Of a stretch of 39,241 bases of DNA, positions 24,133-38,911 are shown piece after piece (position 1 is the stretch's first letter; each line of letters begins with the position of its first letter). The notes beneath the pieces are model-generated. The model did not search any database. It had not been told where the DNA came from and saw only the letters and a program-made list of their open reading frames with translations. The position numbers and the translations under genes were made by a program. Source of the stretch: Candidatus Bathyarchaeota archaeon (GTDB lineage Archaea > Thermoproteota > Bathyarchaeia > Bathyarchaeales > Bathycorpusculaceae); NCBI GenBank assembly GCA_003589585.1, contig QYYE01000002.1, positions 1-39,241 on the forward strand. The letters are read 5' to 3'.

Positions 24133-24885
24133 TTGAAAGTAAGCCTAATCCACATGAAAATCCGCGTCTCCTTGCAAGGCAACATAGACGCCGCAGCAGT
24201 CGCCATTCAAAAAGCAGCCAAAAACAAACCAGCCCTAATCGCCTTGCCCGAATACTTTACCGTGCCAAACTGCATGGCCGACTTCACTGACGCCTCAGCA
24301 ATCAGCAAAGAAACATGCGCCAAAACACTTGCCTTCCTCCAAGAAATCTCCAAAAAAATAGGCGACATCTACCTCTCAGGCGGTTCAGTGCTCGAAGAAG
24401 ACAGCGTCAAATACTACAACACAAGCACCCTGTGGAAAAACGGCAAACTCCTCGCCAAATACAAAAAAATCAACCCCATACAAGCCGAAGTTAAAGCAGG
24501 CGTCGCCAAAGGCAGCACACCGCTTGTGGTTGACACGGAACTGGGCAAAATTGGGATGATTGTGTGCGCCGACACATTTGACCCCTCACTAGTTAAACAG
24601 GTCGCGGGTATGGGCGCTGAAATTGTTACGCTTCCGGTTGCAGCCATGGGCACGCATCCGACGGTTAAGGGTCACCCGTTGACTGAGGCGATTGCGCGGG
24701 ATTATGGTTTGTTTGTGCTTAAAGTCGGCAACGTGTGCTCGAACATGAGGGGTGGGAGAAGTGCGGTTATTGCGCCTTGGGGCATACTTGGCGAGGTTTC
24801 GGATGAGCCAGAAGATTCGATTTTAACGGTTGATTTGGATATGCAGCGGCTAAGGGAGTATCGTCAAAAGCTCAGTAAATCTTAG
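24133..24885 (+). CDS. Carbon-nitrogen hydrolase (nitrilase superfamily)
   Basis: A 250-residue amidase-type enzyme with the complete Glu-Lys-Cys triad: Glu40 in ALPEYF, Lys112 in KYKKIN and Cys145 in IVCADTFDP. Members hydrolyse non-peptide C-N bonds in amides, nitriles or carbamoyl groups. The substrate is not readable. The start is TTG 24133 with GAGGT at 24121-24125. The gene is divergent from the asparagine-synthase-like gene 219 bases away, and its end overlaps the convergent CxCPRC gene by 14 bases. The gene pair may supply and use ammonia, but this is only a suggestion from adjacency. Confidence 0.92.
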   Translation: MKVSLIHMKIRVSLQGNIDAAAVAIQKAAKNKPALIALPEYFTVPNCMADFTDASAISKETCAKTLAFLQEISKKIGDIYLSGGSVLEEDSVKYYNTSTLWKNGKLLAKYKKINPIQAEVKAGVAKGSTPLVVDTELGKIGMIVCADTFDPSLVKQVAGMGAEIVTLPVAAMGTHPTVKGHPLTEAIARDYGLFVLKVGNVCSNMRGGRSAVIAPWGILGEVSDEPEDSILTVDLDMQRLREYRQKLSKS

Positions 24886-25756: not shown

Positions 25757-25778
25757 GTCAAATACCATGTGCGCGCAA

Positions 25779-25791
25779 CAGATATATTCTT
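25779..25791. promoter_or_regulatory. Shared TATA element for divergent CxCPRC and ferredoxin genes
   Basis: AGATATATTC lies in the short gap between the two divergent genes. It is 25-33 bases before the CxCPRC start at 25756 and about 30 bases before the ferredoxin ATG at 25817. Both distances place transcription starts at or just before the start codons. One near-symmetric box could drive both directions. Confidence 0.45.
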
Positions 25792-25816
25792 GGCGCTTAT
25801 TTACTTGTTGATTCGC

Positions 25817-26026
25817 ATGGACAAGCATAAATCCTTTATCATCATTGACCAAACCAAATGCACCTCTTGCCCAGGACTTATCTGTGTCGGCGTTTGTCCT
25901 CAAGGCGTTCTGGAAGCGGATGAAGCCAACAAGCCGCAGGTTGCTGATGAAGTGCAGTGCACTAGATGCGGGGTCTGCGTTAATTTGTGCCCAGCAAAAG
26001 CTATAACAGTGAATCCTAAACAATAA
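25817..26026 (+). CDS. 2[4Fe-4S]-type ferredoxin
   Basis: A 69-residue electron carrier. The first cluster motif is CTSCPGLICVGVCP, slightly expanded from the classical CxxCxxCxxxCP, and the second is CTRCGVCVNLCP. The altered first motif could tune or change one cluster. I start at ATG 25817 (MDKHKSF); an ATG-type start 48 bases upstream would overlap the divergent promoter. The gene is followed after 19 bases by cbiZ in the same direction and faces the CxCPRC gene across a 60-base gap. An electron-transfer partnership with either neighbour is possible but unproven. Confidence 0.92.
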   Translation: MDKHKSFIIIDQTKCTSCPGLICVGVCPQGVLEADEANKPQVADEVQCTRCGVCVNLCPAKAITVNPKQ

Positions 26027-26045: not shown

Positions 26046-27203
26046 TTGAAAGAGTTTGACCTTGCAGAAAACGTTAAACTTATTGTAAAAGATAATGTGC
26101 TGGCAGTTTTATGTGACAAGGGCTTAGCAACGGTTAGTTCAGCAATTTTCAACGGTGGGTTCAAGCGGGTTAAGGCTGTGTTGAATATCGGTGTGCCTGA
26201 AGATTACAGCGACCTTTCCCTGCACCTAAACCCCATGCAACTCATCACTATGTCCTCTGCCAAGCTCGGCATAAATGAGGATTATCTTGCCATGATAACG
26301 GCTGCCCGAATCAAAAATTACAGTTTGGTTTCCAAGAAAGGTGAGGATTTTTCGGTCAGCGTCACCGCTACCGCTGGCTGTTCGCACGGTGAGGCTTCGG
26401 GCGAGGAGATGGATGTCCAGGAAATCACAGGCACCATAAACATCATCGTCTATATCGATGGCAATCCAAGTGACAGCTGCATGGTCGCCGCCTTAATCAC
26501 CGCTACTGAGGCTAAGACGGCGGCGCTGAAAGATTTTGATGTTCGTAGCAGGTACACTGGCGACTGCGCAACAGGTTCGATAACTGACGCGGTTACTGTG
26601 GCATCGACAAAGCAGGGCAAAGAAGTCAGCTATGCAGGTCCAGCGTCAAAGCTTGGCAAGCTAATCGGGTACTGCACAAGACGGGCGGTTAGGGAAGCGT
26701 TGCTCAAGCAGGAGCCCGAGTGGGCACACCGCACGGTTCTGGACAGGCTCAAAGAGAGGCATTTGCCGCTTGAGAAGCTGGCATCTGAAGTGTCCAAAAT
26801 TGAAGGCTTAGCCGTAACTGCCGAGGAATTGGCGAAAATTCTGAACGGTAACCCCTCAGCGCTGGCTGCTTTGTTGGCTGCGGCGAAGATGGATGACGAC
26901 TACAAGAAAAACCTGCTCCCAACCGACCTGCCAGACTGGGAAACAGCAACCAGAAGTTTAGCCGACATCGATTACTCTAAGCTGACAAACTACAACGCTG
27001 TTGACCTGCCACCCTTCATAAAAGTGGTGCTAATCAAAATCCTCAAGCACGCCCAGATTGCAAGTAAGAGAAAGTCGGATATAATCAAACTTGCGGGCAT
27101 TATGAAGGACGAAAAGGAAAAGCTTGATGAACTTAAAAAGGAGATTGCTGCTGAAAGAGAAGCCAACTATGGTCGAAAATTTGACAAAAATTCTTTGAAG
27201 TAG
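26046..27203 (+). CDS. cbiZ: Adenosylcobinamide amidohydrolase (CbiZ) with C-terminal extension
   Basis: CbiZ cleaves the aminopropanol arm of adenosylcobinamide to give adenosylcobyric acid, letting archaea salvage incomplete corrinoids. The family pattern is clear over about residues 1-225: VSSAIFNGGFKRVKAVLNI, then ATAGCSHGEASGE, then INIIVYIDGNPSD and SRYTGDCATGSITDAV. About 160 further residues, helical and charged towards the end (KEKLDELKKEIAAERE), have no recognised match. The TTG start follows GGAG at 26031-26034. It shares a transcript with ferredoxin, and its end is directly followed by a VapC remnant. Its presence fits the corrinoid enzymes further right. Confidence 0.88.
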   Translation: MKEFDLAENVKLIVKDNVLAVLCDKGLATVSSAIFNGGFKRVKAVLNIGVPEDYSDLSLHLNPMQLITMSSAKLGINEDYLAMITAARIKNYSLVSKKGEDFSVSVTATAGCSHGEASGEEMDVQEITGTINIIVYIDGNPSDSCMVAALITATEAKTAALKDFDVRSRYTGDCATGSITDAVTVASTKQGKEVSYAGPASKLGKLIGYCTRRAVREALLKQEPEWAHRTVLDRLKERHLPLEKLASEVSKIEGLAVTAEELAKILNGNPSALAALLAAAKMDDDYKKNLLPTDLPDWETATRSLADIDYSKLTNYNAVDLPPFIKVVLIKILKHAQIASKRKSDIIKLAGIMKDEKEKLDELKKEIAAEREANYGRKFDKNSLK

Positions 27204-31840: not shown

Positions 31841-33226
31841 TTGAAAGTTACTCTGGTTAATCCCCCTTACCCGCCAAATGCACATTCACACCCACCCTTC
31901 ATACCGTTGGGCTTGGCGTATCTTGGTGCAGTCGCCGAAAAAGCAGGTCACCAAGTCACTGTTATCGACTGTCAAGGTGAAAGATTAAACTACGACAGTT
32001 TCCGCCAAAGAATCGCCAATGTCCCCTCTGATGTTATCGGCGTAACCTCAACCACGCTTCTCTACAACTCAGCCAAAACCATCCTCCAAACTGCCAAAGA
32101 ACAGCACCCAAACGCCACAACCATGATTGGCGGAAGCCACGTTAGCTTCTGGGATGAAAACGCCCTAAACGAATCACCAAGCATAGACGTAATCGTGCGC
32201 CGAGAAGGCGAACTCACATTTCTTGAACTCCTGCAGCGCATGGAAGAAAACAAGGGCTTTGAAGAAGTCCAAGGCACAACCATCCGCACAAAAGACGGAA
32301 AAATCACCCGCAACCCAGACAGACCCTTCCTCCACGACTTAGACTCACTGCCTTCTCCAGCATACCACCTTCTCCCATTGGACTCATACCGCCGTATGGG
32401 CAAAACCATCTTCCCCATCGTGACAAGCCGTGGATGTGTTCAATGGTGTGACTTCTGTAGCACCGTGCGCATGTTCGGCAGAGGATACCGCGTGCGAAGC
32501 CCCAAAAAAGTCGTCGACGACATGGAAATGCTCCACAACAAGTATGGCGAAAGCCAATTCACATTCTACGACGACGCATTCACAATCAACCGCAACCACA
32601 CCCTTGAAATGTGCGCCGACATCAAAGCCCGCAAACTAAACGTTGAATGGGACTGCGAAACCCGCGTTGACGCAGTGGACAGGGAACTGCTTGAGAAAAT
32701 GCGCGATGCTGGCTGCATAACAATCTGGTTTGGTGTTGAGTCAGGCTCAGAGAAGATTTTGGGAAAAATGCATAAGAAAATCAACCGGGACCAAGTGCGG
32801 GAAGCCTTCAAGATGGCGCAGAAGGCTGGAATGATGACTATTGCCAGCGCAGTTATCGGCTTCCCAGGTGAAACTGAGGAAACAGCTTGGGAAACAATCA
32901 ACTTCATCAACTCACTAAACCCCGACGACATCGGCTGCTACGTTGCCACACCATACCCAGGCACACCCATGTACGAGGAAGTGGTCCAAAACGGCTGGCT
33001 AAGAGTTACCGACTTCAACAAATACGACACCGCCACACCAACCTTCGAAACCCCGTATTTGAGTATGGAGAAAATCAGCGAAATCAAATACAAGGCGCAC
33101 CAAAAATTCTACCTGCGCCCAAGCTACGTGCTAAAGATGATTCGCAAAGGCGGAACATACGGCAGGTCAGGACTGAAAACCTCTGCCGCTTACGCTCTTA
33201 GGGCTATGCACATTAAACTCTCCTAA
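31841..33226 (+). CDS. B12-binding-domain radical SAM protein (paralog 1)
   Basis: A 461-residue enzyme. Residues 1-140 form the cobalamin-binding Rossmann-like domain (VTLVNPPYPPNAHSHPPFIP, then MIGGSHVSFWDENAL). The radical SAM core follows, with the [4Fe-4S] cysteines in RGCVQWCDFCS (Cys199, 203, 206), then FGVESGSEKILGKMHKKI and IGFPGETEETAWETINFI. Such BchE/HpnR/methyltransferase-type proteins use SAM and cobalamin for methylation or ring chemistry; the substrate is not readable. The TTG start is matched in position by the paralog's ATG. It is the first of a tandem pair in the same direction with separate promoters. Confidence 0.92.
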   Translation: MKVTLVNPPYPPNAHSHPPFIPLGLAYLGAVAEKAGHQVTVIDCQGERLNYDSFRQRIANVPSDVIGVTSTTLLYNSAKTILQTAKEQHPNATTMIGGSHVSFWDENALNESPSIDVIVRREGELTFLELLQRMEENKGFEEVQGTTIRTKDGKITRNPDRPFLHDLDSLPSPAYHLLPLDSYRRMGKTIFPIVTSRGCVQWCDFCSTVRMFGRGYRVRSPKKVVDDMEMLHNKYGESQFTFYDDAFTINRNHTLEMCADIKARKLNVEWDCETRVDAVDRELLEKMRDAGCITIWFGVESGSEKILGKMHKKINRDQVREAFKMAQKAGMMTIASAVIGFPGETEETAWETINFINSLNPDDIGCYVATPYPGTPMYEEVVQNGWLRVTDFNKYDTATPTFETPYLSMEKISEIKYKAHQKFYLRPSYVLKMIRKGGTYGRSGLKTSAAYALRAMHIKLS

Positions 33227-33266
33227 CCCCCTTCACTTGAAACCGCTGATTTTACAAAATTTAAGA

Positions 33267-33279
33267 AAGCAATATATTC
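33267..33279 (+). promoter_or_regulatory. TATA box of the second B12-radical SAM gene
   Basis: AAGCAATATATTCAATCCAA is about 54 bases before the ATG at 33325. It parallels the box of the first paralog. The duplicated gene therefore probably has its own transcript rather than depending on read-through. Confidence 0.5.
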
Positions 33280-33324
33280 AATCCAACACAAGAAAATCTC
33301 CCAAGCAAAAAAGGGCGTCTTCAA

Positions 33325-34707
33325 ATGAAAATTACCCTAGTTAACCCTCCCTATCCGCAAAGCGTCCACTCGCACCCGCCGTTTATTCCACTGGGCATAG
33401 CATACCTGGGCGCGGTTGCAGAAAAAGAGGGATACCACGTCACCGTTATCGACTGCCAAGCAGAAAGACTAACCTATGAAGCCTTCAAAGAACGCATCGC
33501 GCAAACACCATCCGATATCATCGGAGTAACAGCAACAACACTACTCTACAAGTCAGCGATGAAGATAATCACCATAGCTAAACAGGAGCAACCGCAAGCA
33601 GTCACGGTGCTCGGTGGGTCGCATGGAACTTTCTGGGATGAAAACGCCCTCAACGAGTACCCAAGCCTAGACATAGTCGTACGGAGAGAAGGTGAACAAA
33701 CCTTCATTGAACTGCTCGACAAACTCCAAACCCAATCCAGCCTTGGCAGCGTGCTAGGCATCACATACCGAAAACAAGGCAAAATCGTCCGCAACCCAGA
33801 CCGCCCTTTCCTGCATGATTTAGATTCGCTGCCTTTCCCAGCGCATCACCTGCTACCGCTTGAAAAACTAAAGCATAACGGCAAAATCCTCTTCCCCCTA
33901 GTTACCAGCCGTGGATGCGTTTACTGGTGTGACTTTTGCAGTACTGTGCGCATGTTCGGCAGAGGATACCGTATGCGTAGCCCAAAAAACGTTGTGGACG
34001 AGATGCAGCTGGTCCATGACAAGTACGGGGTTGACCAAGTCACGTTTTATGATGACGCTTTTACGGTTGACCGCGACCGAGTGATGAAAATCTGCCAAGA
34101 ACTGCATGATAGAAAATTGCGTATGACTTGGGATTGTGGCACACGGGTTGATATGGTGGACCGTGAACTTCTCAAAACCATGCACGGTGCAGGATGCTTT
34201 GCAGTTTGGCTGGGAGTAGAATCAGGTTCCGAAACCATCTTAGGCGCTATGAACAAAAAAATAAAGCTAGAGCAAACACGCCAGGCCTACAAAACAGCCC
34301 ACCAGGTTGGGTTAATGACCATCGCAAACACTGTGCTGGGCTTCCCAGGCGAAACCGAACAAACCGCTAAAGAAACAATCCGTTTAATCAAGGAACTAAA
34401 CCCAGATGACGTGGGCTTCTACATTGCCACACCGTATCCTGGGACACCCATGTATGAAGAAGTTAAGAAGAACGGTTGGCTACGAGTTACGGATTTTGAC
34501 AAGTACGATACTGCTGGTCCAACTTTTGAGACGCCTTGGTTGAGTATGGAGAAGCTTGCGGAACTTCGCTCCAAAGCATACCAAGACTTCTACCTGCGAC
34601 CAAGTTACGTGTTTAAGATGATGCGTAGAGGTGGAGTCTACGGAATTGCTGCGGTTAAGACTTCAGGCGCTTACCTGTTGCGGGCTCTCCACTTGAAGAC
34701 TTGGTAG
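33325..34707 (+). CDS. B12-binding-domain radical SAM protein (paralog 2)
   Basis: A 460-residue tandem paralog of the preceding gene, collinear throughout; by eye the first 50 residues differ at about ten positions. The radical SAM cysteines are in RGCVYWCDFCS, with the same FGRGYR, GVESGSETILGAMNKKI and LGFPGETEQTAKETI segments. Both copies keep intact catalytic motifs, so both are probably active. Differences cluster in the substrate side of the barrel and the linker (for example CAVWLGVE versus CITIWFGVE), compatible with distinct substrates. The end overlaps the convergent DUF1616-like gene by 45 bases. Confidence 0.92.
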   Translation: MKITLVNPPYPQSVHSHPPFIPLGIAYLGAVAEKEGYHVTVIDCQAERLTYEAFKERIAQTPSDIIGVTATTLLYKSAMKIITIAKQEQPQAVTVLGGSHGTFWDENALNEYPSLDIVVRREGEQTFIELLDKLQTQSSLGSVLGITYRKQGKIVRNPDRPFLHDLDSLPFPAHHLLPLEKLKHNGKILFPLVTSRGCVYWCDFCSTVRMFGRGYRMRSPKNVVDEMQLVHDKYGVDQVTFYDDAFTVDRDRVMKICQELHDRKLRMTWDCGTRVDMVDRELLKTMHGAGCFAVWLGVESGSETILGAMNKKIKLEQTRQAYKTAHQVGLMTIANTVLGFPGETEQTAKETIRLIKELNPDDVGFYIATPYPGTPMYEEVKKNGWLRVTDFDKYDTAGPTFETPWLSMEKLAELRSKAYQDFYLRPSYVFKMMRRGGVYGIAAVKTSGAYLLRALHLKTW

Positions 34708-35079
34708 CGTTCTGCTTTTTCTTATGAAAGCAACTGTAGCTAAAACAAACACTATGACGCTAAGTGAAACTGTTATTGATGTAAAGTTAATTCCTATAGG
34801 TGATAAGCCTAAGAACAAGCCGATAAGCCCAGCTATGCCAAAGCTAAGTGCAACCGACAACACAATCTCTTCAACTATATCTATCTTGTTTTTACCCAAG
34901 AACAGTATGTTAACTAGGCAGTAGCCTGGCAGAAACGTGACAAAAGTAAATGCTAAAATTATCCTCAAAACAACAAGCGGAGAATCGCTTGGAACAACAT
35001 TAACTATTGCTAAAGTTAAAAGCGTGTAGGCAACAATTATTTCAAACCATCTCAGAGGCTTCAACCCGTAATCCTTCAA
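34663..35079 (-). CDS. DUF1616-like membrane protein
   Basis: A 138-residue integral membrane protein with four hydrophobic helices (about residues 12-28, 35-57, 70-90 and 97-116) and a polar C-terminal tail. The LPGYCLVNILF stretch, followed by EEIVLSVALSFGIAGLIGL, resembles the DUF1616 membrane domain common in archaeal surface and glycosylation loci. Function unknown. The TTG start is at 35079. Its 3' end runs 45 bases into the convergent radical SAM gene, which supports a compact real gene rather than a chance frame. Confidence 0.7.
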   Translation of the reverse strand: MKDYGLKPLRWFEIIVAYTLLTLAIVNVVPSDSPLVVLRIILAFTFVTFLPGYCLVNILFLGKNKIDIVEEIVLSVALSFGIAGLIGLFLGLSPIGINFTSITVSLSVIVFVLATVAFIRKSRTLPSLQVESPQQVSA

Positions 35080-35108: not shown

Positions 35109-36017
35109 TTACATGAAGGCTTTGAAGATCGGGTGAGATTCTTCTAGCGGTCGTGTTCCAAGGTCAGCTGCGGCAGAAGCAACATAAGTATCTACGACTG
35201 CAACGGCTGGGAAGACCCATTCCGCTTGCTCTGCTGGCCCAATCATAAGCCAGTTTGCACCCATCGTTTGCATAATCGCGTTAGTAGCGGTTACGCATCC
35301 CTTGCGGAATTCCTTAGCAAAGTTTGCTTTGACCCAACCCATGGTTGTGACCACGTTTCCGCTGCCAAGACCCACTGGATGACCATATTTCTCTTTCATT
35401 ACAGGTATGGTTCTCACAGCAGTACCCATGTCTGGAGCAAACGCTGGAATGGCAGTGTCAATCAGTGGCTTGGTAATTCCACCTTTATCCGCCAACGCTA
35501 AAGCTTCCTCGATGACCTTCATTTTTCCTTCTAGGCTGTTGTCTTTGGGGTCGTCAGCAAGCACAATGGACATTTGGATGCCGCTTTCTTTCAGCACTGC
35601 TAATTCAGCGTCAGTTACGCCTTTGTAGACTGAGTTGTAGAAGCATCGGTCGGCAAGACCCATGTTCTTAGCCAAGTTTGCAGCTGCCATACGAGTCTTA
35701 GGGCTCATTGCATCCAACATTATTGGAGCTTCACTGTGTTTAGCAACGAAGTCAATGTACTTCTCAAAAGCCAGCTCGGTTGTTCCCACAACGTCAAAAG
35801 CAAAGGGAACCCCGGTAATGTCGCTTTGAACCTGACACTTGTTGATTATATCTTCAGCTACGGCTGCGTCAAAAACACCTTTGTTTGCGTCTGAAACCAT
35901 CTTCTGGCCAAGCCAAAAGATAGAACCAATCAGAAAAGTTGGCAGTTCTCCTGGTTGACCGCCTACTTTTACTCTCCCTATCTCGTATACTTTTTGGTCT
36001 GTATTGAATCTGAGCAT
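35109..36017 (-). CDS. mtrH: MtrH-family methyltransferase (tetrahydromethanopterin S-methyltransferase subunit H type)
   Basis: A 302-residue TIM-barrel methyltransferase of the MtrH family. It transfers a methyl group between tetrahydromethanopterin (or another pterin) and a corrinoid protein. Family stretches are YEIGRVKVGGQPGELPTFLI, then AFDVVGTTELAFEKYIDFV, then GLGSGNVVTTMGW and MGANWLMIGPAEQA. None of the other Mtr subunits (A-G) is in view; instead the neighbour upstream is a small corrinoid protein 18 bases away. That points to a soluble methyl-transfer module rather than the sodium-pumping Mtr complex. The methyl donor substrate is unknown. Confidence 0.92.
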   Translation of the reverse strand: MLRFNTDQKVYEIGRVKVGGQPGELPTFLIGSIFWLGQKMVSDANKGVFDAAVAEDIINKCQVQSDITGVPFAFDVVGTTELAFEKYIDFVAKHSEAPIMLDAMSPKTRMAAANLAKNMGLADRCFYNSVYKGVTDAELAVLKESGIQMSIVLADDPKDNSLEGKMKVIEEALALADKGGITKPLIDTAIPAFAPDMGTAVRTIPVMKEKYGHPVGLGSGNVVTTMGWVKANFAKEFRKGCVTATNAIMQTMGANWLMIGPAEQAEWVFPAVAVVDTYVASAAADLGTRPLEESHPIFKAFM

Positions 36018-36035
36018 TTTACATCAACTGATGGA

Positions 36036-36461
36036 TTATTTCTTGATTGCCTTTTTAGCTAACTCAGGGGCCTCTTCTTTGTTTTTGCCAAAGAGTGCGC
36101 CGATTGCATCTGCATCTTCTTTTTTGACTGCTGCACCGCCCATGATTATGCCGATTTGACCTTTCAAACCTGCAGCTTTTAGCGCTTCATCAAGTTTTGG
36201 TATGTTGTTTTTTGCAGGAACTGTATTTACTGAAATTGCAATCAGGTTTGCGTTGTTTTCTTTTGCTTTGTCAACGAAAACTTGTGGTGCTACGCTTTTG
36301 CCAACGTCAATTGTTTTGAATCCTGCGCGTTTTAGTGAGCGGCGGACTGCTTCTTTTGCTGTGTCGTGCATGTCGGGTTCGATGTTGCCGATAACGACTA
36401 CGCCGATTGGATTCTCTGGTTCTGGAGGCTCTTTTTCCATCATAGATTTAAGCCAAGACAT
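36036..36461 (-). CDS. Small corrinoid (B12-binding) protein
   Basis: A 141-residue protein comprising only a cobalamin-binding Rossmann-like domain: NIEPDMHDTAKEAVRRSLKR holds the D-x-H core (Asp30, His32), LIAISVNT the second loop and GIIMGGAA the third. The usual DxHxxG reads DMHDTA, with Ala for Gly. The N-terminal four-helix cap found in MtaC/MtbC-type corrinoid proteins is missing; only about 18 residues precede the fold. It presumably carries the methyl group handed to or from the adjacent MtrH. The ATG at 36461 follows AGGTG, and TATAAAAAG lies about 37-45 bases upstream. Confidence 0.88.
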   Translation of the reverse strand: MSWLKSMMEKEPPEPENPIGVVVIGNIEPDMHDTAKEAVRRSLKRAGFKTIDVGKSVAPQVFVDKAKENNANLIAISVNTVPAKNNIPKLDEALKAAGLKGQIGIIMGGAAVKKEDADAIGALFGKNKEEAPELAKKAIKK

Positions 36462-36495: not shown

Positions 36496-36506
36496 CTTTT
36501 TATACT
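36496..36506 (-). promoter_or_regulatory. TATA box of the corrinoid protein/MtrH operon
   Basis: On the minus strand GAGTATAAAAAGCC lies about 37-45 bases before the corrinoid protein ATG. It is among the closest matches to the archaeal consensus in the window and would give a leader of about 15 bases containing the AGGTG ribosome site. Strong expression of the methyl-transfer pair is likely. Confidence 0.55.
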
Positions 36507-36577
36507 CGAATTCCATATTTAAGCTTTGACTAACAAATTCAATCAAGCATAGCATAAAACATCAAACGGGAAAGCGG

Positions 36578-38911
36578 ATGGTCAAAGCAAACAAAAAGCA
36601 TCTACTGCTGATGTTGGTTTTCATTTTTGCGTTTATTTACCGTTTGGTTTTGATGCTTTGGGAAACTTTTCCGCCAGGCGCAGATATCGGTTTACACAAC
36701 AGCGTTATTTACTCTATTACTGGGTCAGGAAATGTTGATTTTCTCTATAACTTTTATCACATTGGCGGTGGTGTTTCGCTGACTTTTCCAGGTTACCACA
36801 TTTTCACGGCAGGCATAATGATGCTGACTGGAATGCCTGAGTATCTTGCGCATGCTACAGTTGTGTCCTTGTTTTCATCGCTTATGGTTTTGTGTGCTTT
36901 TTTGATAACTCGGAAGGTTTGGTCGGTTTCTGCAGCGTATATTGCGGCTGTTTTGGTGGCGATTTCACGCTTTGACATTGAAATGTTGCTGTGGGCGGGT
37001 TACCCCAACGTTATAACCCTGCTCTTGATTCCCTTAACCTTCTACTTGTATCTACAAAAAGACCGATTCTCCATCACACCATTCTTGGTTTCAACTTCTA
37101 TCTTGGCAGGCTCATTATTCCTTACGCATTCCCTTAGCGCAACCATTTTTGTAGCAATAACGTTTGCTGTTGTCCTCTTCAGTCTGGTTTCGCCTAAGAG
37201 GTTTGGCGCTTCCAGAAAAACTACATTATACTGGTTGTTACCCATAATTATTGGCGCTATTCTTGTTTCGCTTTTTCTGGTGCAAGCAGCGCCAGCTTAT
37301 CTGTCTGATAGCGCATACCTTAGCGGTTCAAGTTCAAACGACATTGAGAGTGCAACTCTCTCAGCACGGGTTCTACCGCTCTGGATGGTTTTGCCGCTCT
37401 TTGCTGTTATCCCAGCCTTTCTGCTTTTCTCTAAGAAGGTTTACAAGAGATTTTTGGCTCTTCCAGTGTTCCTGTTCTGTATGTGGGTGCTTGTCTCCTT
37501 GATTCCAACTCAAGGCTATTTGCTTGGGCTTCCCTTTGATTACAACCGTTTCCTCTACTTCGCAATTTTGCCAGTACTAATATTCATGGCTGTGCTTATC
37601 GACCATGGCTCAGGCTTCTTTGCAAAAATCATAGATACCTACCGAACTTTAACACGTCAAACACAGGCAATAAAACCGACCACTCATAAGCGAGTGGCGA
37701 GGATTTCGGCAGCTCTTACACGAAAAAAAATCTACTGCATCTTTGCCACGTTCTTCCTGTTGTTTTCTTTTTTAGTTCTTCCTATTTTTATGGGACCAAC
37801 CTATAATTTTGGGACAAGCATACAGGGTTTCTACCAAACAATGAACCAACCGCTCTGGGATGCGATACAATGGATTAAACAGAATACACCTGCCAACTCG
37901 GTGTTTGTTTCAGACGCGTTATATGGCTGGTGGCTCGGCGGCTTTGCTCATCGGCCAACTTTGAGTGCTGTTGACCCCCAGTATTTATCGCTAAACCGCG
38001 AGGTTGACAATGCAACGTTTGCCAGAAACATCCTTGACACCAACTACATAATCAATAATAATTCAACTTTGATTCCACAGGTCCGCGATGACGGCGGATA
38101 CATTGCAAGGCACAACCCCCAGATTTTAGTCAATCAAAATTGGACGTACTATCCATCATCATTCTTCAATTTCAACAGTAACGCCACGAGCATTATGTAC
38201 CGTGTTGATGACAATCCTCAGCAATTCGTAATGTTAAACGAGCTTGCAGTAAAAGAAACACGGATTGAAAATAATTTACAACATGCCACAATTATAGTCA
38301 CTAGAGGAAATGATGACTTTAATCATACAGTATCAACAACAGTTACTCAGGGAATACGATTCGTTAACATAACTGTAATATTAACCAGTTTACGTTCGGG
38401 TGTATTTTTTGACTGGGTAGACATTCAAGTAGAGACTAAGCCAGAACAGATAAGATACAACAACGACAATGTCACCATGGGCTTTGTGGATGTGGGAACA
38501 AAAGCGTTCGGCCAGCTAATCTTTAGTACAACACCACTCCGCGCCGATTACTCGCCTTCAACGGTTAGGTTAAAGTATTCTCTCCAAGGACAATCACAGG
38601 CACAAATCCAGATGCTCGCAACCGCATATTCCGAGAGTAACAATGAACAGTTTTACAGCAGCCAAGAAGCTATGAACGAATATTTCATTCCCATAATGAC
38701 TGAGAACTTAAAGACAGCGCTGAAACCAATCGAACAAGCCAGTCACTTGGAGGTCTTCGATTACCGCTCAGAAATACAGGCACGGAGCATTTCATACATC
38801 GCCCGTCGAGACTCTGAAATAGATCCCAAGTTCCGCAATGATCCCTTGTTTAGCCTTGTGTTTATTAACGATAAAGTTGCAATTTACAAGGTAGATGGGA
38901 ACCTCACTTAA
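36578..38911 (+). CDS. Large GT-C-like multispanning membrane glycosyltransferase
   Basis: A 777-residue membrane protein. The first half (to about residue 415) has at least ten hydrophobic helices. The first extracytoplasmic loop contains PPGADIGLHNSVI, an acidic residue plus His as in GT-C sugar transferases that use lipid-linked donors. The second half is a soluble exterior domain (from LWDAIQWIKQNTPANSV, then SDALYGWWLGGFAHRPT), reminiscent of the C-terminal domain of oligosaccharyltransferase-like proteins. It probably acts in surface protein or lipid glycosylation; the donor and acceptor are unknown. It overlaps the next gene by 17 bases. Confidence 0.8.
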   Translation: MVKANKKHLLLMLVFIFAFIYRLVLMLWETFPPGADIGLHNSVIYSITGSGNVDFLYNFYHIGGGVSLTFPGYHIFTAGIMMLTGMPEYLAHATVVSLFSSLMVLCAFLITRKVWSVSAAYIAAVLVAISRFDIEMLLWAGYPNVITLLLIPLTFYLYLQKDRFSITPFLVSTSILAGSLFLTHSLSATIFVAITFAVVLFSLVSPKRFGASRKTTLYWLLPIIIGAILVSLFLVQAAPAYLSDSAYLSGSSSNDIESATLSARVLPLWMVLPLFAVIPAFLLFSKKVYKRFLALPVFLFCMWVLVSLIPTQGYLLGLPFDYNRFLYFAILPVLIFMAVLIDHGSGFFAKIIDTYRTLTRQTQAIKPTTHKRVARISAALTRKKIYCIFATFFLLFSFLVLPIFMGPTYNFGTSIQGFYQTMNQPLWDAIQWIKQNTPANSVFVSDALYGWWLGGFAHRPTLSAVDPQYLSLNREVDNATFARNILDTNYIINNNSTLIPQVRDDGGYIARHNPQILVNQNWTYYPSSFFNFNSNATSIMYRVDDNPQQFVMLNELAVKETRIENNLQHATIIVTRGNDDFNHTVSTTVTQGIRFVNITVILTSLRSGVFFDWVDIQVETKPEQIRYNNDNVTMGFVDVGTKAFGQLIFSTTPLRADYSPSTVRLKYSLQGQSQAQIQMLATAYSESNNEQFYSSQEAMNEYFIPIMTENLKTALKPIEQASHLEVFDYRSEIQARSISYIARRDSEIDPKFRNDPLFSLVFINDKVAIYKVDGNLT

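Follow-up and report, generated by a model that had tools for sequence, protein, structure and literature searches.

The locus described here raises the question of where a corrinoid protein that consists of little more than a B12-binding domain obtains its methyl group, and where that group goes, when its neighbour is an MtrH-type methyltransferase. The two genes lie in a window of 39,241 bp, the whole stretch of DNA that was analysed, which is an entire contig from a genome that is 83% complete. The original prediction placed the pair at 35109-36461, which the positions of the open reading frames (ORFs) confirm, and proposed a link from an unknown methylated compound to H4MPT. The link to H4MPT is retained, and the substrate class is probably a known one, the methoxylated aromatics (PMC10989822). 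The corrinoid protein (CoP) and the MtrH-type enzyme are very probably the MtgC and MtgA of the Bathyarchaeia O-demethylase, and it is probable that carrier (MtgC) and second methyltransferase (MtgA) work with MtgB-like donor enzymes encoded in the same gene island to pass methyl groups to H4MPT. The system itself is already known (Yu et al. 2023; the couple in Loh et al. 2021), and at this locus the entire candidate system is visible at once. Anoxic sediments harbour abundant Bathyarchaeia, and the way in which these archaea draw on the methyl groups of lignin is relevant to carbon cycling.

Coordinates of the features are collected in Table 1. The ORFs of CoP and MtrH are 18 bp apart on one strand, and no further Mtr gene adjoins them in their neighbourhood in the window, as had been predicted for an MtrH apart from neighbouring Mtr subunits. 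The TATA element proposed for the pair was recovered as two TATA-like boxes, TATAAAAAG at 36504-36496(-), 43 nt ahead of the CoP ATG, and AAAGCTTAAATAT at 36527-36515(-); of 70 homologous upstream regions, 47 have TATAWA at about -55 to -27, where shuffled sequences, which ignore relatedness, give 5.4.

Table 1. Features of the CoP-MtrH locus and of the associated island, in window coordinates.
Feature	Coordinates	Strand	Evidence
MtgC-like cap-less corrinoid protein (CoP)	36036..36461	-	141 aa; PF02310 (B12-binding) 52.4 bits (cut-off 32.1), family alignment, motif census, model
MtgA-like, MtrH-type methyltransferase	35109..36017	-	302 aa; PF02007 266.9 bits (cut-off 22.8), full length
Two TATA-like elements before the pair	36496..36527	-	sequence; recurrence in relatives
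DUF1616 protein	34663..35079	-	PF07760 70.8 bits; downstream neighbour of the pair in nearly all relatives (synteny)
MtgB-like protein b, candidate substrate-specific methyltransferase (MT1), about 300 aa	27931..28833	+	alignment, co-occurrence, TIM-barrel model
CbiZ, adenosylcobinamide amidohydrolase (corrinoid salvage)	26046..27203	+	PF01955 170.5 bits; synteny
Small ferredoxin, two 4Fe-4S motifs	25817..26026	+	PF12838 42 bits on ORF 25769-26026; synteny
MtgB-like protein a, second candidate MT1, about 294 aa	24872..25756	-	alignment, co-occurrence
Nitrilase-family protein (carbon-nitrogen hydrolase), final gene of the island	24133..24885	+	PF00795 105.1 bits; synteny

The lack of a helical cap in CoP, already noted in the original prediction, stands: the 141-aa ORF matches PF02310 only, with the B12 domain beginning at residue 21, and no second Pfam family exceeded its own cut-off in the Pfam search, hence no cap domain. 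A longer ORF with a hidden cap is ruled out because a TAA stop lies in frame directly 5' of the ATG, and the place of the cap is occupied by a conserved N-terminal tail, MSWLKSMMEKEPPEPENP. The predicted exchange of Gly for Ala in DxHxxG was likewise found (D30-M-H32-D-T-A35, with A35 at the Gly position), and the other motifs read S77-x-N79 and G108-G109. Residues M1, L4-K5, K10-E11-P12, D30, H32, S77, N79 and G108-G109 are invariant across 19 aligned homologues. All 60 of 60 distinct MtrH-linked carriers have A, P or S at the sixth position of the motif and none has G, and the cobalt-ligating His is invariant; SxN replaces SxL in every MtrH-linked carrier that was scored, and three capped relatives within the family carry DxHDIG. 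Judged by the canonical features of corrinoid proteins, CoP thus has the His and the GG and lacks the cap, the motif Gly and SxL. An AlphaFold model (pLDDT 79) matches MttC (7xcn), Moorella 1y80 and the B12 domains of MetH. MttC, MtbC and MtaC (7xcn, 3ezx and 2i2x) share with CoP the B12-binding Rossmann-like domain, the His ligand and the GG (MttC 7xcn is 37% identical in the fold alignment), but differ in having DxHxxG, SxL and a helical cap at the N-terminus, where CoP is capless and has Ala and SxN. The locus suggests a B12 methyl carrier that is apparently able to dispense with the cap and has an altered cobalt-binding motif.

The His is lost in all but one of the scorable cap-less copies that lie away from MtrH (D-I-M-D-T-A and similar). 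Because these unlinked paralogues are mostly His-less, the pattern argues that the His, and hence cobalt ligation, is important in carriers partnered by MtrH. MtrH-unlinked carrier-like proteins with Met or Ile for the cobalt-ligating His were seen at loci L121-L130 and L197 (e.g. L124:9019-9456 and L126:8788-9228); they share the N-terminal tail of CoP, and among their neighbours no partner enzyme recurs in all. A literature search for cap-less corrinoid proteins returned nothing, and the cap-less, Gly-less signature of this subfamily, together with its His-less paralogues, may be new.

Besides the Pfam match given in Table 1, the MtrH-type enzyme scores 271.7 bits against TIGR01114 (cut-off 271.4) and 207 bits against the MtgA model NF047990, below the cut-off of 550. 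Its solved relatives are MtrH and Desulfitobacterium MtgA (8z9u, 9qtp and 6sj8). By sequence, the MtrH of the Mtr complex and Desulfitobacterium MtgA belong to the same family; the partner there is MtrA or a capped MtgC, whereas here it is a cap-less B12 domain.

Contrary to the original prediction, the pair is not a minimal two-gene unit. Across Bathyarchaeia the gene order CoP-MtrH-DUF1616-MtgB-CbiZ-ferredoxin-MtgB-nitrilase recurs, and by synteny it is present in the window as well, with two MtgB-like genes, ferredoxin, CbiZ and nitrilase; in relatives, radical-SAM genes often lie between DUF1616 and the first MtgB-like gene. Capped-carrier clusters of the same family contain a RACo activase, in place of which the cap-less island has the conserved ferredoxin and CbiZ. 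The two MtgB-like proteins are 34% identical to one another. H125, C132, C134 and C137 are invariant in their alignment and may serve as zinc ligands, and the model obtained is a TIM barrel (pLDDT 90). Pfam and fold searches gave distant, glycoside-hydrolase-like TIM-barrel matches only, and the alignment profile had no significant match among PDB sequences. A donor-specific methyltransferase had been expected to lie elsewhere; with two MtgB-like candidates inside the window, a donor enzyme outside it was dropped as the default.

A corresponding system was described by Yu et al. 2023 (PMC10989822) in Ca. Baizosediminiarchaeum ligniniphilus, which encodes mtgB_1, mtgB_2, mtgA and mtgC and whose recombinant MtgB_2 and MtgC together demethylate guaiacol and vanillin (PMC10989822). 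From the stated concentrations (1.2 mg/ml = 79 uM; PMC10989822), the published MtgC comes to about 15.2 kDa, so it looks cap-less too. The window and that system, both from Bathyarchaeia, have in common an MtrH-like second methyltransferase (MT2) and a small corrinoid protein of, by implication, about 15 kDa; in Ca. B. ligniniphilus these accompany two MT1 proteins of about 300 aa that are unrelated to known MT1, in a cluster from which an activase is absent (PMC10989822). In the window, the MtrH-family MT2 lies 18 bp from a carrier of 15.05 kDa (against the 15.2 kDa implied), and two genes for proteins of about 300 aa, with no similarity to known MT1, co-occur with the pair, their MtgB likeness being one of description. 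These TIM-barrel proteins fit the published MtgB by size, by multiple copies, by lack of similarity to known MT1 and by lineage. Ca. B. ligniniphilus belongs to a different genus and subgroup, and the proteins of the window were matched to the published Mtg proteins by description, not by alignment. According to a later study (PMC11697101, 2024), every one of the Bathy-6 metagenome-assembled genomes (MAGs) has MtgA and MtgC, while MtgB numbers between two and five in some subclades and is missing from another. The available part of Loh et al. 2021 (PMC7886697) describes a CoP-MtrH couple in all Bathy-6 MAGs, that is, the same gene pair in the same lineage with MtrH as the only Mtr subunit, and leaves both a catabolic and an anabolic role open; that part mentions neither the missing cap, nor the Gly replacement, nor the MtgB island.

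Co-occurrence was counted in 91 genomes of the family, with no correction for phylogeny. The MtrH-type cap-less carrier is present in 57 of these, all 57 of which also contain MtrH, and MtgB-like genes were found in 46 of the 57 carrier-bearing genomes versus 4 of the 34 others (13/14 versus 2/19 when split by genus). Of the four carrier-less genomes with MtgB-like genes, three do not exceed 75% completeness, and the fourth shows only a weak match. The O-demethylase reading is favoured because the island recurs across Bathyarchaeia and MtgB-like genes track the carrier, and further because the mass of the carrier is close to that of the published MtgC, MtrH-linked carriers keep the His, and MttB is absent from the genus. 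Against it count the location of the MtgB-like genes, which in the window lie 6-10 kb away from CoP and MtrH and share no transcript with them, their glycoside-hydrolase-like distant homology, and the existence of eleven genomes, ten from the genus and one from outside it, that hold carrier and MtrH without an MtgB-like gene.

In the proposed mechanism, the MtgB-like enzymes would transfer the methyl group of methoxylated aromatics to the Co(I) of the cap-less carrier, as has been shown for the relative (PMC10989822). The MtrH-type enzyme, judged from its family, would then move the methyl group from the carrier to H4MPT, and the resulting methyl-H4MPT would feed the Wood-Ljungdahl pathway, where the Cdh complex would use it; CdhD/E-type genes are present in the source genome on another contig. 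CbiZ would presumably salvage the corrinoid, and the conserved ferredoxin may stand in for a RACo activase by aiding reduction and reactivation of Co(II).

The genomes that keep the pair without donor enzymes are where a different role must be weighed, namely that MtrH passes the methyl group of CH3-H4MPT to the cap-less carrier and from there to a hypothetical homocysteine methyltransferase, as a split methionine synthase to which MtgB-dependent O-demethylation is an add-on. We regard this as unlikely, and it is equally doubtful that the pair is anabolic at its root and that lineage-specific MtgB attached later to exploit lignin methoxyl groups. The pair is present in all 32 genomes of the genus, including ten that have neither MtgB-like genes nor MttB; in MtgB-less genomes the dN/dS values, 0.04 (carrier) and 0.07 (MtrH), indicate strong purifying selection. 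At least six MtgB-less loci lack the MtgB-ferredoxin-MtgB-nitrilase block between DUF1616 and an asparagine-synthase-like gene, and CoP, MtrH, DUF1616 and CbiZ stay in place. That MtgB was lost and the pair kept may also be new. Relatives of this kind amount to a natural experiment that allows a further role of the pair, perhaps a missing step in methionine synthesis, to be tested directly.

Gene content bears on the same proposal. Of the pair-bearing genomes, 44/57 have the homocysteine gene PF01837 without PF01717, and PF02574 was found in one of the 91 genomes. According to Loh et al. (PMC7886697), who raised this reading, a CoP-MtrH couple adjoins metE in Ca. Methanomethylicus. MetH itself offers an analogous pairing of pterin enzyme and B12 carrier, with a B12 domain of the same fold as CoP; here the proteins are separate, the carrier is capless, and no homocysteine domain (PF01717 or PF02574) was found in the source genome. 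On the other side, no acceptor enzyme was found nearby, the genomes may be simple methionine auxotrophs, PF01837 proteins can serve other roles, and the presence of MtgB follows the pair by genus. Genomes with tandem PF01717 are mostly without the pair, but at the level of genera this opposition is not significant (p = 0.16; not corrected for phylogeny). A methionine synthase of the PF01717 or PF02574 type was set aside as partner, neither family having been found in the source genome at 83% completeness.

The block-less loci belong to termite-gut relatives (L157, L161, L165, L177, L179 and L181). Most genomes of the genus have PF01837 and lack PF01717 and PF02574, which could reflect a missing enzyme or auxotrophy. 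One MtgB-less genome of the genus (L100; G014:C50:1766-2569) carries a 786-aa open frame with PF02574 (S-methyl_trans) and a B12 domain, MetH-like, which is either an acquired gene or a contaminant.

Lower in probability, and in our view improbable, is service to another donor enzyme, either of the UroD family or a methyltransferase that has escaped recognition and acts on methylated amines, thiols or alcohols. One UroD-family gene is present in the source genome (contig C179), and some genomes that lack MtgB have a second MtgA homologue (PMC11697101). UroD-family matches are nevertheless sporadic, occurring in 4 of the 32 genomes of the genus that all have the pair, and a UroD-type donor was rejected on this ground. 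An MttB-type donor was rejected as absent from the genus; MttB occurs in 3 of the 91 family genomes, where it sits with capped carriers. It is very improbable that the pair simply ferries methyl groups between H4MPT and the acetyl-CoA synthase complex in the Wood-Ljungdahl pathway, as the original prediction also suggested: CdhD/E-type genes do occur in the source genome, and 53 of the 57 genomes with the pair have them, but 19 genomes of the family hold them without the pair, the neighbourhood offers no link of the pair to cdh genes, and the CdhD/E of other archaea takes the methyl group directly from methyl-pterin, which counts against such a shuttle.

The O-demethylase reading is the one preferred for the pair. 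Divergent from the pair, at 36578-38911(+), lies the gene for a probable membrane protein of 777 aa, with no clear family in Pfam, that keeps its position in nearly all relatives. Just downstream of CoP-MtrH, at 31841-34707(+), two B12-binding radical SAM proteins, of 461 and 460 aa, are encoded in tandem, and about a dozen such proteins are found in the whole genome.
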